Below the pieces are notes generated by a model. The model had not been told where the DNA came from. It did no database searches and worked only from the letters and a program-made list of their open reading frames with translations. 64,000 bases of DNA from positions 372,001 through 436,000 of the forward strand of contig CANMAW010000001.1 in assembly GCA_947495915.1 (NCBI GenBank). Reading direction: 5' to 3'. This document shows positions 43,215 to 46,323 of this stretch, piece after piece; position 1 is the stretch's first letter; every line of letters begins with the position of its first letter. A program made the position numbers and the translations under genes. This DNA is from Maribacter algarum (ex Lu et al. 2025) (nom. illeg.) (GTDB lineage: Bacteria > Bacteroidota > Bacteroidia > Flavobacteriales > Flavobacteriaceae).

Positions 43215-44426
43215 ATGCTAGAAAAGAAATCTATTGATTATGAAAGAGCGGTTCTAATCGGACTTATGAATCGAGAACAAAATGAAGAAAAGGTAAATGA
43301 ATACCTGGATGAACTTGAATTTCTAACGTATACTGCTGGAGGTGAGGTATTTAAACGATTTGTACAACGTATGGATGTGCCAAATCCGAAAACCTTGATA
43401 GGAAGTGGAAAAATGGAAGAAGTTGAAGCCTATGTTAAAAAGCATGAAATTGGATCTGTCATCTTTGACGATGAACTTAGTCCGGCGCAACAACGAAATA
43501 TAGAAAAACAACTACGCTGTAAAATTATTGATCGAACAAGCCTTATACTTGATATATTCGCACAACGAGCTCAAACGAGCTATGCTCGCACACAAGTAGA
43601 ACTCGCTCAATACGAATATTTACTACCTAGATTAACAGGTCTTTGGACCCACCTTGAGCGTCAAAAAGGGGGTATAGGTATGCGAGGCCCTGGGGAAACC
43701 GAAATTGAAACAGACAGACGTATCGTTAGAGACCGAATTACCTTATTAAAGAAGAAACTATTAAAAATTGATCGCCAAATGGAAACCCAACGAGGTAATC
43801 GTGGGTCATTAGTTCGGGTTGCTCTAATTGGGTACACCAACGTCGGTAAATCTACTTTAATGAATGTTGTTAGCAAAAGCGAAGTTTTTGCTGAAAATAA
43901 ACTCTTTGCAACTTTAGATACTACGGTTCGAAAAGTTGTGTTAGGCAATTTGCCATTTCTTCTAAGTGACACTGTTGGTTTTATTCGAAAACTACCTACA
44001 CAGCTGGTAGAAAGCTTTAAAAGTACATTAGATGAGGTTCGTGAAGCAGATTTGTTGTTACATATCGTAGATATTTCGCACCCGCAGTTTGAAGAGCACA
44101 TCGAATCGGTAAATAAAATTTTATCAGAGATTAAAAGTTCAGACAAGAAAACTATAATGGTTTTTAATAAAATAGATCAGTTTGAACATGAATCAATAGA
44201 TGATGATGACCTTATTACAGAAAAAACAGGGCGTCATTTTACGTTAGATGAATGGAAACATACCTGGATGGAACGATTGGGTAACCGTGCCCTATTTATT
44301 TCAGCATTAAACAAAGAAAACTTAGATGATTTTAGAAAAAGAGTTTATGATGAAGTTAGAGATATTCATGTAACACGTTTTCCGTACAATAACTTTCTAT
44401 ACCCAGAACATTTAGACGAATATTAA
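43215..44426 (+). CDS. hflX: ribosome-associated GTPase HflX
   Basis: 403 residues from the ATG at 43215. The N-terminal HflX domain contains 'KTLIGSGKMEEVEAYVK' and the Gly-rich 'GGIGMRGPGETEIETDRR'. The G domain shows G1 'GYTNVGKSTL' (~205-214), G3 'SDTVGFI', G4 'NKID' and G5-like 'FISALNKEN'. HflX splits stalled 70S ribosomes after stress and also acts as an ATP/GTP-dependent ribosome-rescue factor. Downstream is the ~960-base region with three repeat units. No terminator of its own is seen before the first unit. Confidence 0.95.
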   Translation: MLEKKSIDYERAVLIGLMNREQNEEKVNEYLDELEFLTYTAGGEVFKRFVQRMDVPNPKTLIGSGKMEEVEAYVKKHEIGSVIFDDELSPAQQRNIEKQLRCKIIDRTSLILDIFAQRAQTSYARTQVELAQYEYLLPRLTGLWTHLERQKGGIGMRGPGETEIETDRRIVRDRITLLKKKLLKIDRQMETQRGNRGSLVRVALIGYTNVGKSTLMNVVSKSEVFAENKLFATLDTTVRKVVLGNLPFLLSDTVGFIRKLPTQLVESFKSTLDEVREADLLLHIVDISHPQFEEHIESVNKILSEIKSSDKKTIMVFNKIDQFEHESIDDDDLITEKTGRHFTLDEWKHTWMERLGNRALFISALNKENLDDFRKRVYDEVRDIHVTRFPYNNFLYPEHLDEY

Positions 44427-44532
44427 AGGAAAATTCTGTTGTACTGAAGATTTTTAATATCATATTAGTTAAAAAAATGTGTAGTTTATCGATGAAATAT
44501 TCCGTTGATATTTTTCACAACATCAGTGGTAC

Positions 44533-44743
44533 AGTTCACAACAATAATTTAGAAATAAGTAGCTACTGGTATACCTTTACAATGTAATTAAGTGATAGTG
44601 TTGACCCCAAATCGCCCCTTGAACTTAACTGAAATTTTGAATGTAATGATCCCAAATCAATACTTAAAACTAACTGCTTAAAAGCTACCCGAATTAATCA
44701 AACCTACTTGATAAAAAAGCCCTCCAAATTGGAGGGCTTTTTT
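44533..44743 (+). ncRNA. tandem small-RNA candidate, unit 1
   Basis: A 211-base unit with promoter-like boxes TTTA (44548-44551) and TACCTTTA (44572-44579), 20 bases apart, and an intrinsic terminator at 44713-44743. The transcript would be ~160 nt starting near 44585. Inside are CCCAAATC at 44606-44613 and 44651-44658 and CTTAACTGAAA at 44624-44634. Units 2 and 3 repeat this order. No open frame fits the unit. Presence of the repeat is read directly; transcription is inferred. Confidence 0.6.
44713..44743. terminator. intrinsic terminator of unit 1
   Basis: AAAAAAGCCCTCC, loop AAATT, GGAGGGCTTTTTT: a 13-bp perfect stem with T-runs on both strands. Confidence 0.9.
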
Positions 44744-44860
44744 ACTTTCTATTTGTTAAAACTAACTTTTCAAATTACAAAGTGATGAACTTTATTGAAG
44801 CCCCGAAGTAATTCAACTTAAATTTTAAACACTTCGTCGGACACACAACAAATTAGGTTT

Positions 44861-45085
44861 AGTTCACAACAATAATTTAGAAAAACCTAGCAACTGCCAT
44901 ACCTTTACATTGTAATTAAGTAATAGTGTTGACCCCAAATCACGCCGAGAACTTAACTGAAAATTAATGTATTGTTTTACCCAAATCGATACTTAACCAA
45001 GATATTATCCGAATTCATTCGGAACTCAAATTTTACTAATCACCTACTTGTAAAAAAACACCTCATTGAAAAATGAGGTTTTTTT
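44861..45085 (+). ncRNA. tandem small-RNA candidate, unit 2
   Basis: A 225-base unit. Boxes TTTA (44876-44879) and TACCTTTA (44900-44907) have the same 20-base spacing as unit 1. The next 33 bases (44909-44941) match unit 1 at 31 positions. CCCAAATC recurs at 44934-44941 and 44980-44987, and CTTAACTGAAA at 44952-44962. It ends with CCTACTTG and a terminator. The predicted transcript is ~170 nt starting near 44913. Conserved promoter and terminator with a diverging middle fits duplicated small RNA genes. Confidence 0.6.
45060..45085 (+). terminator. intrinsic terminator of unit 2
   Basis: ACCTCATT, GAAA tetraloop, AATGAGGT, then a run of T. The GNRA loop and T-run favour the plus strand. Confidence 0.88.
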
Positions 45086-45140
45086 ATGCAGTTCATCGAT
45101 CATACCACACCTTTTAGACGGTTGGCAACAACCTATATCA

Positions 45141-45364
45141 TCTTCACAACAAAAATTTATAAGTACGCTAAACCACAACTACATTCGTCTTGTATTTGAG
45201 ATTTAATGTTAGTCCCAATGACAGAAATAATCTTAACTGAAAAATTACTATTATTTGGATTGTTCCCAAGTTTATTCTTGACTTTAGGTTTAATTATTGA
45301 CTGTAATTATCCAATTAACGAATCCTACTTAACAAAAAAACGCCTCGATTATATCGAGGCGTTT
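45141..45364 (+). ncRNA. tandem small-RNA candidate, unit 3 (diverged)
   Basis: A 224-base unit, more diverged. It keeps TTCACAACAA near its start, CCCAA at 45214-45218 and 45265-45269, CTTAACTGAAA at 45232-45242, and CCTACTT before the terminator, all in the same order. The promoter boxes are not well kept, so it could be silent or read from unit 2. Its terminator also serves the opposing suf/DUF3078 operon. Confidence 0.45.
45338..45364. terminator. bidirectional terminator between unit 3 and the DUF3078 gene
   Basis: AAACGCCTCGAT pairs perfectly with ATCGAGGCGTTT around loop TAT, with T-runs on both strands. It lies 26 bases after the DUF3078 stop on the minus strand. Confidence 0.9.
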
Positions 45365-45390
45365 ACTTTTTTTAAAAATTGTTATAGTGC

Positions 45391-46323
45391 TTATAGCGAG
45401 TAGTTCAAACCGAATAACCAGTAACTTTGAACTGGGTTATCTACATTGTCAAATGTAATTGCTGGTACTTGAACAGGCGCATTAGCTAAAGCTTCTTGCT
45501 TGTTGTTTCTTAGTCCGAATTCAAATCCTAGTCCGATTCCTTTCCAAAGTGTATAACCAAATGAGTTTACCCATGTCCAGTTTGAAAGGTCTCCACTCTT
45601 ATAACTTTGAAACGTTGAGAAGTTCGTTTTGAAACTTACGGCGCCAATTGCTTTGGTATAATCAACAACGATTTTAGCACCAGTTGAAGATTCATAAGCT
45701 GCATCATCTTCAGCAAATACAAAGTTATAGTTCAAAGGGTGTATCACCACAACCATATCAGTAATTGGAGTCCAAGTGGCACCAACACCAAGATCTAAAT
45801 AACCTGGGTCATTGAAATTATTAATGATAGAAGTTCTGTATTCACCTAAGGCTGAAATCGCGAATTTATCGCTCAATTTATAACCATATAAAGAAGTAAT
45901 ATTAAATACATCAGTAGTTCCGTTGAAGCCATCGTCATCTGTATCAATGTCTTTGTTGTCAAGCTTTACCCATTGTGCATTGATATTACCTGAGTTTCTC
46001 CAGAAAAACTTAGCTCTATCTAAATTGGCAAATGCATTTAAAGTTATACCGATATTACCAGAAGAATTATTAGGAGTACCTTGAGAGAACCAATTTTTAG
46101 AACCCGCTAAATTTGCTCCAATAGTACCGAAAGCACCTTTTCTCCAGCCTGGCAAGCCATCAATTTCACCTTGAATAGCATCTATTCTTCCTTGAATAGC
46201 AGCAATAGAATCCGCTTTAGGACCTAATAAAGCTTTTAGCTCTTCTGCCTTTTGCTTATCATCTTGTGCAAAACTTAAAGTAGCGGTAAAAACTGCTACA
46301 ACTGCAATAATTATTTTCTTCAT
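45391..46323 (-). CDS. DUF3078-family outer-membrane beta-barrel protein
   Basis: 310 residues with signal peptide MKKIIIAVVAVFTATLSFAQ. A short helical segment (~22-55, 'RIDAIQGEIDGLPGW') is followed by amphipathic beta strands and a C-terminal strand 'SYWLFGLNYSL', the outer-membrane barrel signature. It matches the DUF3078 pattern known in Bacteroidota; no ligand is known. It ends the minus-strand suf-side gene run, followed by a strong terminator. Base use is less AT-rich than its neighbours, consistent with high expression. A -7-like box lies 30 bases upstream. Confidence 0.85.
   Translation of the reverse strand: MKKIIIAVVAVFTATLSFAQDDKQKAEELKALLGPKADSIAAIQGRIDAIQGEIDGLPGWRKGAFGTIGANLAGSKNWFSQGTPNNSSGNIGITLNAFANLDRAKFFWRNSGNINAQWVKLDNKDIDTDDDGFNGTTDVFNITSLYGYKLSDKFAISALGEYRTSIINNFNDPGYLDLGVGATWTPITDMVVVIHPLNYNFVFAEDDAAYESSTGAKIVVDYTKAIGAVSFKTNFSTFQSYKSGDLSNWTWVNSFGYTLWKGIGLGFEFGLRNNKQEALANAPVQVPAITFDNVDNPVQSYWLFGLNYSL

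Follow-up and report, generated by a model that had tools for sequence, protein, structure and literature searches.

Tandem small-RNA-like units between hflX and a DUF3078 gene as candidate decoys of a conserved multi-copy small RNA in Flavobacteriaceae

Results

Architecture of the array

The DNA analysed here is a window of 64,000 nucleotides in which hflX (TIGR03156, E 1.1e-131) ends at 44426 and a DUF3078 gene (PF11276) occupies 45391-46323 on the minus strand. Between these two genes, three units follow each other directly in tandem on the plus strand, each with promoter boxes and a terminator. An earlier note on this DNA had described them as likely small-RNA genes that were duplicated, and this description is supported, as is their conservation in relatives. 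The direct units are marked by the repeat families D1, with two copies of 122 nt (84%), D2 and D7, with spacings of 328 and 280, and D5, with spacings of 340 and 281.

Unit 1 is preceded by a direct repeat, TTCACAACA-N12-TTCACAACA, at 44514..44543 (44514-44522 and 44535-44543, 21 bp from start to start), which was identified from the sequence and from pattern counts. It is followed by a -33 box TTTA (44548-44551) and a -7 box TACCTTTA (44572-44579) with 20 bp between them. The RNA, a candidate decoy by its complementarity to the small RNA core described below, would extend over 44584..44746 and carries three sites: site I, which consists of CCCCAAATC (44605-44613), seven bases and GAACTTAAC (44621-44629), site II, CCCAAATC (44651-44658), and site III, ACCTACTT (44702-44709). 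It ends in an intrinsic terminator at 44712..44744 that was found both by the terminator scan and as inverted repeat I1.

Unit 2 has the same layout, with a promoter repeat at 44842..44871 (CACACAACA at 44842-44850, TTCACAACA at 44863-44871), a TTTA box at 44876-44879 and, again after 20 bp, a -7 box TACCTTTA at 44900-44907, so that the boxes of both units stand where the note had placed them. Its candidate decoy RNA (44912..45086), assigned from complementarity and a hairpin, contains site I (CCCCAAATC at 44933-44941, N7, GAACTTAAC at 44949-44957), site II (CCCAAATC at 44980-44987, in the loop of the predicted hairpin) and site III (ACCTACTT at 45042-45049), with the scanned terminator at 45060..45086. 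Counted on the sequence, units 1 and 2 are identical in 32 of 34 bases downstream of the -7 box, close to the 31 of 33 reported earlier.

Unit 3 is unlike the other two, which the note had not remarked on, in that its -7-like box is TACATTCG (45180..45187, supported by the sequence and by an alignment of seven type-3 units) and in that it pairs only weakly with the small RNA. Its promoter repeat lies at 45122..45151 (TTGGCAACA at 45122-45130, TTCACAACA at 45143-45151), and its RNA, a divergent member that belongs to a conserved type-3 group, would cover 45192..45373. CCCAA is found at 45214 and 45265, CTTAACTGAAAA at 45232-45243 and CCTACTTA at 45324-45331, and the terminator from the scan occupies 45338..45373. 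Each unit, including this one, has CCCAA twice and CTTAACTGAAA and CCTACTT once each, which agrees with the note.

PMC9723704 gives the flavobacterial sigma-A box as TAnnTTTG at -12 to -5. Since we took the -7 box to lie at -12 to -5 accordingly, the three units would each begin with a G, at 44584, 44912 and 45192. A terminator scan of both strands of 44200-45700 returned six sites (one of them within hflX) versus 0.7 +/- 0.8 in shuffled sequence, with terminator-like sites at all three unit ends (44712-44744, 45060-45079 and 45338-45364), as had been proposed.

With respect to known RNA families, no Rfam model matched anywhere in the window at the gathering threshold, and membership of the units in a known Rfam family, which the note could not exclude, was rejected. 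The 43 sub-threshold matches belong to scattered unrelated families, mostly around terminators, and neither Flavo-1 nor 6S-Flavo, the two families singled out for this check, is among them or reaches its gathering score.

A promoter repeat shared with other genes

In each unit, the 21-bp direct repeat of TTCACAACA or a near copy, a feature that the note does not mention, lies upstream of the -33 box, the second copy directly before the box. The pattern TTCACAACA-N12-TTCACAACAAWAAT with three mismatches occurs at 10 places in the source genome versus none for the reversed control, and a shorter version with two mismatches is found in 14 of 14 genomes of the genus, at 6-17 places each (control 0-1). 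Forty stretches around repeat places among those listed, mostly from three genomes, were read for downstream genes together with earlier loci. Recurring behind the repeat in different species are genes for an ECF-type sigma factor, for a TPR-HisKA_2 histidine kinase, for a DUF6747 membrane protein, for LRR proteins and for large secreted adhesin-like proteins (named by eye), as well as tiny ORFs; some repeat loci (e.g., L082, L097, L115) have no convincing downstream gene.

Sites of the LytTR type (AgrA-like) consist of direct repeats that lie upstream of -35 and are spaced by 21-22 bp. The arrangement here resembles them: a 9-bp sequence is directly repeated at a distance of two helical turns, immediately 5′ of the -33 box, and the spacing of the unit repeats falls within the same range. 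Among the ORFs of at least 110 aa beside the kinase gene, inspected by eye in three species, no response regulator was recognised; the neighbours resemble menC/menE and an oxidoreductase.

A second, unrelated multi-copy small RNA of about 100 nt is likewise preceded by the promoter repeat, which is followed by a core ATTTTTTCATTTTCATATAGTGTTCTCGTAAAAGAGCT and a terminator. In the source genome it is found at C3:27768 (minus strand), C10:54196 (plus) and C9:14003 (minus), i.e., loci L046, L047 and L083, none of which has an Rfam match, and in relatives at L094, L096, L107 and L109.

A multi-copy small RNA complementary to unit and leader motifs

In several promoter-repeat genes, the leader resembles the units in having CCCAAA(T)C and CCTACT, here close to the ATG. 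A genome-wide search for the corresponding arrangement, CCCAA...ACCTACT...ATG, gave 13 places versus six for the control, five of the 13 being loci of the small RNA introduced here or of a short candidate decoy (see end of Discussion), and two being one and the same place. It was on the opposite strand of four tandem places from this search that we uncovered a small-RNA-like gene, here termed A-sRNA, with the core AAGTAGGTTAAGTT[C/T]ATGGTAAGATTTGGG. Its four tandem copies in the source genome (G000) lie at C1:707166-707889 on the minus strand. Judged from the sequence, the RNA would be about 70 nt long, with a 5′ part ACCAUAGCAUAAGUAGGUUAAGUUCAUGGUAAGAUUUGGGG followed by a terminator. Each A-sRNA-like gene has a -7-like box, ACCATAGCATAAGTAGGTTAAGTT[C/T]ATGGTAAGATTTGGGG or a close version of it, a GC hairpin and a T run. 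In the predicted folds of 12 copies, the 5′ CCAT can pair with ATGG, which would present a seed in the loop.

The exact A-sRNA pattern was found in 20 of 59 relatives, including 14 of 14 genomes of the same genus (control 0), mostly in three to four close copies each. In the wider family it occurs in 117 of 349 genomes and 84 of 237 genera, counts from which divergent copies are missing given the use of exact patterns; the reversed control gave none among the rows listed. A named collection contains at least 119 A-sRNA stretches. Among the 80 listed, the names are those of flavobacteria, e.g., Maribacter, Zobellia, Flagellimonas/Muricauda, Eudoraea, Robiginitalea, Arenibacter, Cellulophaga, Kordia, Aequorivita and others, with the exception of some labelled just Bacteroidetes, Bacteroidota or Flavobacteriia and of one Candidatus Rokubacteria. 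A phage origin was rejected, as the pattern is absent from viral contigs, and so was Rfam membership, for which the A-sRNA loci, like the units, have no match above threshold.

The core is present in 305 of 312 distinct sequences collected and is highly uniform across the copies found. The pattern itself fixes most of its letters, but those left free read AAGTT[C/T]AT in 296 of 305 copies, and the ten upstream bases, which are also free of the pattern, read [A/G]CCATAGCAT in 270 of 305. Of 282 copies, 169 have a TAnnTTT[G/A] or TAnnTTCG box between -8 and -15, and 113 do not. Further upstream, at about -50 and -71 from CCATA and thus roughly 21 bp apart, TTCA[ACT]CNAA boxes are seen (62 matches versus 9 with the reversed motif), with at least one box in 54 of 282 copies.

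The A-sRNA core is complementary to the unit motifs CCCCAAATC, GAACTTAAC and ACCTACTT, and their 7-nt spacing mostly matches as well. When the 41-nt 5′ part of A-sRNA was used as a query against 8528 overlapping 50-nt segments from both strands of the window, the four best segments came from units 2, 1, 2 and 1 (-35.7 to -32.1 kcal/mol), the duplex of unit 2 (-35.7 kcal/mol) ranking first and that of unit 1 (-33.5 kcal/mol) second among the 8528. Ranks 5 and 6 fell opposite the promoter repeats of units 1 and 2, on the other strand, and we take this for chance. The best duplex of unit 3 reaches only -18.9 kcal/mol, with 482 segments scoring better, and this we counted against the decoy reading. 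Duplexes of the second small RNA with A-sRNA were weak too (-10.5 to -15.4 at the five loci tested).

The complementarity extends to units beyond the window. The retrieved loci yielded 31 unit-like sequences, the window's three included, of which 28 were kept after dropping three without CTTAAC/CTTGAC. In these 28, 7-mers complementary to A-sRNA cover 915 nt versus 119.8 +/- 27.7 (maximum 186) in 200 dinucleotide shuffles, an excess that is partly built in because CCTACTT and CTTAAC/CTTGAC, though not CCCAAATC, had served to collect the units; in all 31 units, the controls gave 22 (same-sense) and 117 (reversed). The gap that separates CCCAAATC from GAACTTAAC, measurable in 19 of the 31, is 7 nt in 14, 8 in four and 22 in one, where it holds a small hairpin. 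Seven is also the gap in the complement of A-sRNA. Since the gap bases vary and are mostly unpaired, pairing at site I would give two helices of 9 bp each, separated by an internal loop. For units 1 and 2, complementarity to A-sRNA is strongly supported.

The A-sRNA core is likewise complementary to mRNA leaders that stand behind the promoter repeat found in the units. We compared 37 promoter-repeat loci outside the second small RNA family, a non-independent set with two units and several orthologs from three species, to 45 regions upstream of window ORFs of at least 150 aa. The best A-sRNA duplex averaged -22.0 in the former and -16.2 in the latter (p 3e-8). CCCAAA occurs in 21 of 37 promoter-repeat loci (19 of 35 without the two units), in some cases within coding sequence, versus 0 of 45 controls, and plain CCCAA in 22 of 37 versus 5 of 45.

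Outside the promoter-repeat set, one mRNA carries AAACCTACTTATGCTATG over its start codon and reaches -38.1 kcal/mol with A-sRNA. Its gene is present in 13 of 39 genomes. By eye, CCCAA...AACCTAC before the ATG is kept in 5 of 12 ortholog leaders, its own included, and the full motif is missing in the other seven, one of which retains the first half alone. Genome-wide, the start-codon site AACCTACTTATGCT with two mismatches gave 53 matches versus 41 for the reversed control; when 26 of these, A-sRNA genes aside, were read, 23 lay inside ORFs and two at start codons. A genome-wide target count by such short patterns was dropped as uninformative, the counts barely exceeding the controls. Because complementary start-codon sites are hardly enriched genome-wide, the targets beyond the shared-promoter set may be few.

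Conservation and co-occurrence

As the note had suggested, the repeats were sought in other Flavobacteriaceae. A sequence-only model, built from 21 units and starting after the promoter, recovered RNAs like units 1 and 2 in 38 of 349 family genomes and 29 of 237 genera, though its strict filters may lose weak units. All 38 unit-positive genomes belong to the set surveyed for A-sRNA, and all 38 have at least three A-sRNA copies; conversely, units were found in none of the 232 genomes without A-sRNA and in none of the 55 with one or two copies. Sorted by the number of A-sRNA pattern matches, units occur in 0/232 genomes with none, 0/41 with one, 0/14 with two, 6/24 with three, 19/23 with four, 11/12 with five, 2/2 with six and 0/1 with seven. 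The association of the two in presence has a Fisher p of 8e-21 that ignores relatedness.

The model retrieved 20 unit loci, five of them from genomes already used, which leaves 15 held-out loci. In 15 of 15, TTCACAACA-N12-TTCACAACA with at most four mismatches stands at the same distance upstream, even though this region lies outside the model. A stricter pattern of site I plus CCTACTT identified eight units in 7 of the 15 held-out loci; the gap is 7 in seven of them and 8 in one, and both half-sites are present in 8 of 8.

In an alignment of 21 type-1/2 units, the columns that would pair with A-sRNA are 91% identical versus 65% for the remaining columns once the first 40 are set aside (p 2e-10). 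These initial 40 are themselves 90% identical, which pairing with A-sRNA does not explain and which we count against a role purely as decoys. This conserved 5′ end, GTAATTAAGTGATAGTGTTGA (44584-44604 and 44912-44932; ~90%), is not complementary to A-sRNA and, going by the predicted fold of unit 2, could fold onto the unit's own GAACTTAAC.

The covariation analysis that the note had called for came out in part: RNAalifold on a MAFFT alignment gave no consensus structure of the whole unit, but a script search found a local hairpin around the second CCCAAATC that forms 7-8 of 8 pairs in 19 of 22 sequences, versus 7 pairs in 10 of 477 shuffles and 8 in none. It covaries at one position (A-T to T-A). 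The hairpin is poorer in unit 1 of the window (6 pairs) and in two type-3 units (5 pairs), and the second CCCAAATC tends to occupy its loop.

Discussion

The motifs of the units are same-sense copies of motifs in mRNA leaders, and their complement is the core of A-sRNA. For this reason, the units look like decoys of a regulator, and not like the multi-copy regulator that the earlier note had envisaged. Its suggestion that the CCCAA motifs are pairing sites holds in so far as they are complementary to A-sRNA, but pairing with mRNAs is not supported. We therefore consider it probable that units 1 and 2, and less clearly unit 3, are decoys for A-sRNA that free leader-bearing mRNAs from repression.

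Leader mimicry, complementarity to A-sRNA and the promoter repeat common to the units and the leader genes together make a co-induction circuit the simplest arrangement. A single regulator bound to TTCACAACA-N12-TTCACAACA would switch on leader-bearing genes and decoys together. A-sRNA would pair with leaders that bear CCCAAA(U)C and/or (A)ACCUACUU near the start codon, and since the paired sites overlap start codons, it would presumably act as a repressor, most likely by blocking translation. The decoys, once transcribed, would titrate A-sRNA in the cell through the bipartite site I (with 9 pairs on either side of an internal loop of 7 nt), the CCCAAAUC loop and ACCUACUU, such that A-sRNA would cover the unit segments CCCCAAAUC, GAACUUAAC and ACCUACUU. 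With A-sRNA titrated, the mRNAs would escape repression and be translated. On the larger claim we are evenly divided: that there is a Flavobacteriaceae-wide, Hfq-free circuit in which mRNAs for surface proteins, sigma factor and kinase are induced by one direct-repeat regulator together with leader-mimicking tandem decoys, the latter licensing translation by removing a near-invariant, multi-copy repressor sRNA. If true, this would make the circuit a coherent feed-forward loop whose target mimicry relies on a central internal loop.

Since pairing is symmetrical, the roles could also be reversed, with the units as regulators in their own right and A-sRNA as an antagonist that silences them as it would the mRNAs. 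The conserved 5′ end of the units lies outside the A-sRNA pairing and could serve as a seed for other targets, and type-3 units hold conserved sequence with little complementarity to A-sRNA. However, this 5′ end aside, the best conserved columns are mainly the A-sRNA sites, in the same sense as the leader motifs, and the units are narrower in distribution than A-sRNA (38 versus 117 of the 349 genomes), so that we regard a reversal of roles as unlikely.

Decoys of the CsrB/RsmZ kind bind a CsrA-type protein through GGA motifs in hairpin loops. The units might similarly act by titrating a protein that binds RNA and recognises the leader motifs CCCAAAUC/CCUACUU, and the CCCAA and CCTACT motifs shared with leaders had in fact first led us to this idea, which was down-weighted after the opposite strand showed a complementary sRNA. 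The motifs are repeated and common to the leaders, and no overall fold is predicted for the units. The conserved unit motifs are CCCAAATC, GAACTTAAC and ACCTACTT. However, all 38 unit genomes contain an sRNA that is the exact complement of the three motifs, arranged in the right order. Furthermore, a search that covered two RNA-binding families, Hfq and RRM_1, found the former in 0 and the latter in 1 of 14 genus genomes. We regard a protein as the titrated partner as very improbable. That the units are functionless debris of a tandemly duplicated promoter and terminator is hardly credible, for although they are tandem duplicates and some copies look degenerate (3 of 31 without CTTAAC/CTTGAC), they occur in 29 of 237 genera, show position-specific conservation and, at all 15 held-out loci, still have the promoter repeat.

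The best-studied base-pairing sRNA networks rely on Hfq. The Hfq model (PF17209) had no match in any of the 14 genus genomes, nine of which are at least 90% complete, versus matches for the control set in 5 of 14, and RRM_1 (PF00076) is absent from the source genome and was found in one of the 14 (control 2 of 14). The sole RRM_1 match lies in G013 at C13:59391-59612 (L366), in a 616-aa open frame. Pairing, if used in the cell, would hence proceed without a recognisable Hfq and, in most species of the genus, without an RbpB-type domain.

By description, the closest known kinds appear to be QrrX and CrfA. According to PMC9732341, QrrX of Vibrio cholerae is a dedicated sponge of the Hfq-interacting sRNAs Qrr1-4 with a LysR-type activator. 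It has its own transcriptional activator and pairs with and inactivates four sibling sRNAs, which is reminiscent of the four A-sRNA copies here, whereas Hfq was not found in our case and the candidate sponge is a tandem array whose promoter repeat is common to leader-bearing genes. CrfA of Caulobacter crescentus, a sponge of the four sibling sRNAs SisA-D, was found through Hfq, as stated in PMC12559287; the units, compared by description, belong to another phylum and have another architecture. Two features that mark a sponge are seen here: predicted boxes and terminators give each of the three units the make-up of an independent gene with its own promoter and terminator, and units 1 and 2, with unit 3 weak, show complementarity to one specific sRNA family in its conserved core. 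Association with Hfq, a trait of QrrX and CrfA though no requirement for a sponge, is missing here. What would be new are the tandem decoys, the absence of Hfq, the internal-loop mimicry and the shared promoter.

Within the phylum, few sRNAs have a known function, to judge from PMC9723704 and PMC11697453. The latter describes FopS and GibS of Bacteroides thetaiotaomicron, paralogous sRNAs whose antagonist is the RRM protein RbpB. They resemble A-sRNA in phylum and multi-copy family and, if A-sRNA acts as proposed, in start-region binding and an activity countered by another factor, but that factor is a protein there and a candidate RNA here (PMC11697453). In the window, the Rfam model of GibS reached 29 bits (cut-off 115), and this on the opposite strand; at the A-sRNA loci it had no match. 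Rfp18 of Flavobacterium psychrophilum, in the account that PMC9723704 gives, is likewise a conserved flavobacterial sRNA, for which metalloprotease and adhesin mRNAs have been predicted as targets; it is described as strongly structured and pairs by its third stem-loop, in which it differs from A-sRNA as far as a comparison by description goes. No description of A-sRNA or the units was found in the open-licence PMC papers searched.

From sequence alone, one can make out an sRNA core that is near-constant in 84 sampled genera, its mRNA-like leader sites and an array of dedicated candidate decoys. The resulting model, which can be tested directly, concerns the way in which surface and stress genes might be gated in flavobacteria. 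It also offers a candidate for naturally occurring target mimicry with an internal loop in bacteria.

The type-3 units (45192-45373 in the window; seven aligned) keep conserved stretches of their own, TATTTGGATTG in 5 of 7 and a TTATTGACTGTA-like stretch in most. Because they combine these with little complementarity to A-sRNA, they may have another partner.

The remaining 7 of the 312 sequences collected for A-sRNA represent a different locus, the source-genome copy of which lies beside a yidC-like gene (by eye). The opposite strand of this locus carries a short candidate decoy, CCCAAATCTTACCAAACTAAACCTACTTAATGCT, followed by a terminator. This decoy sequence is complementary to A-sRNA save for a gap of 2 nt in its centre and individual base changes. 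In the source genome it is found at C8:52333 (L132, plus strand), and similar loci are L136, L139, L141, L183, L279 and L281.
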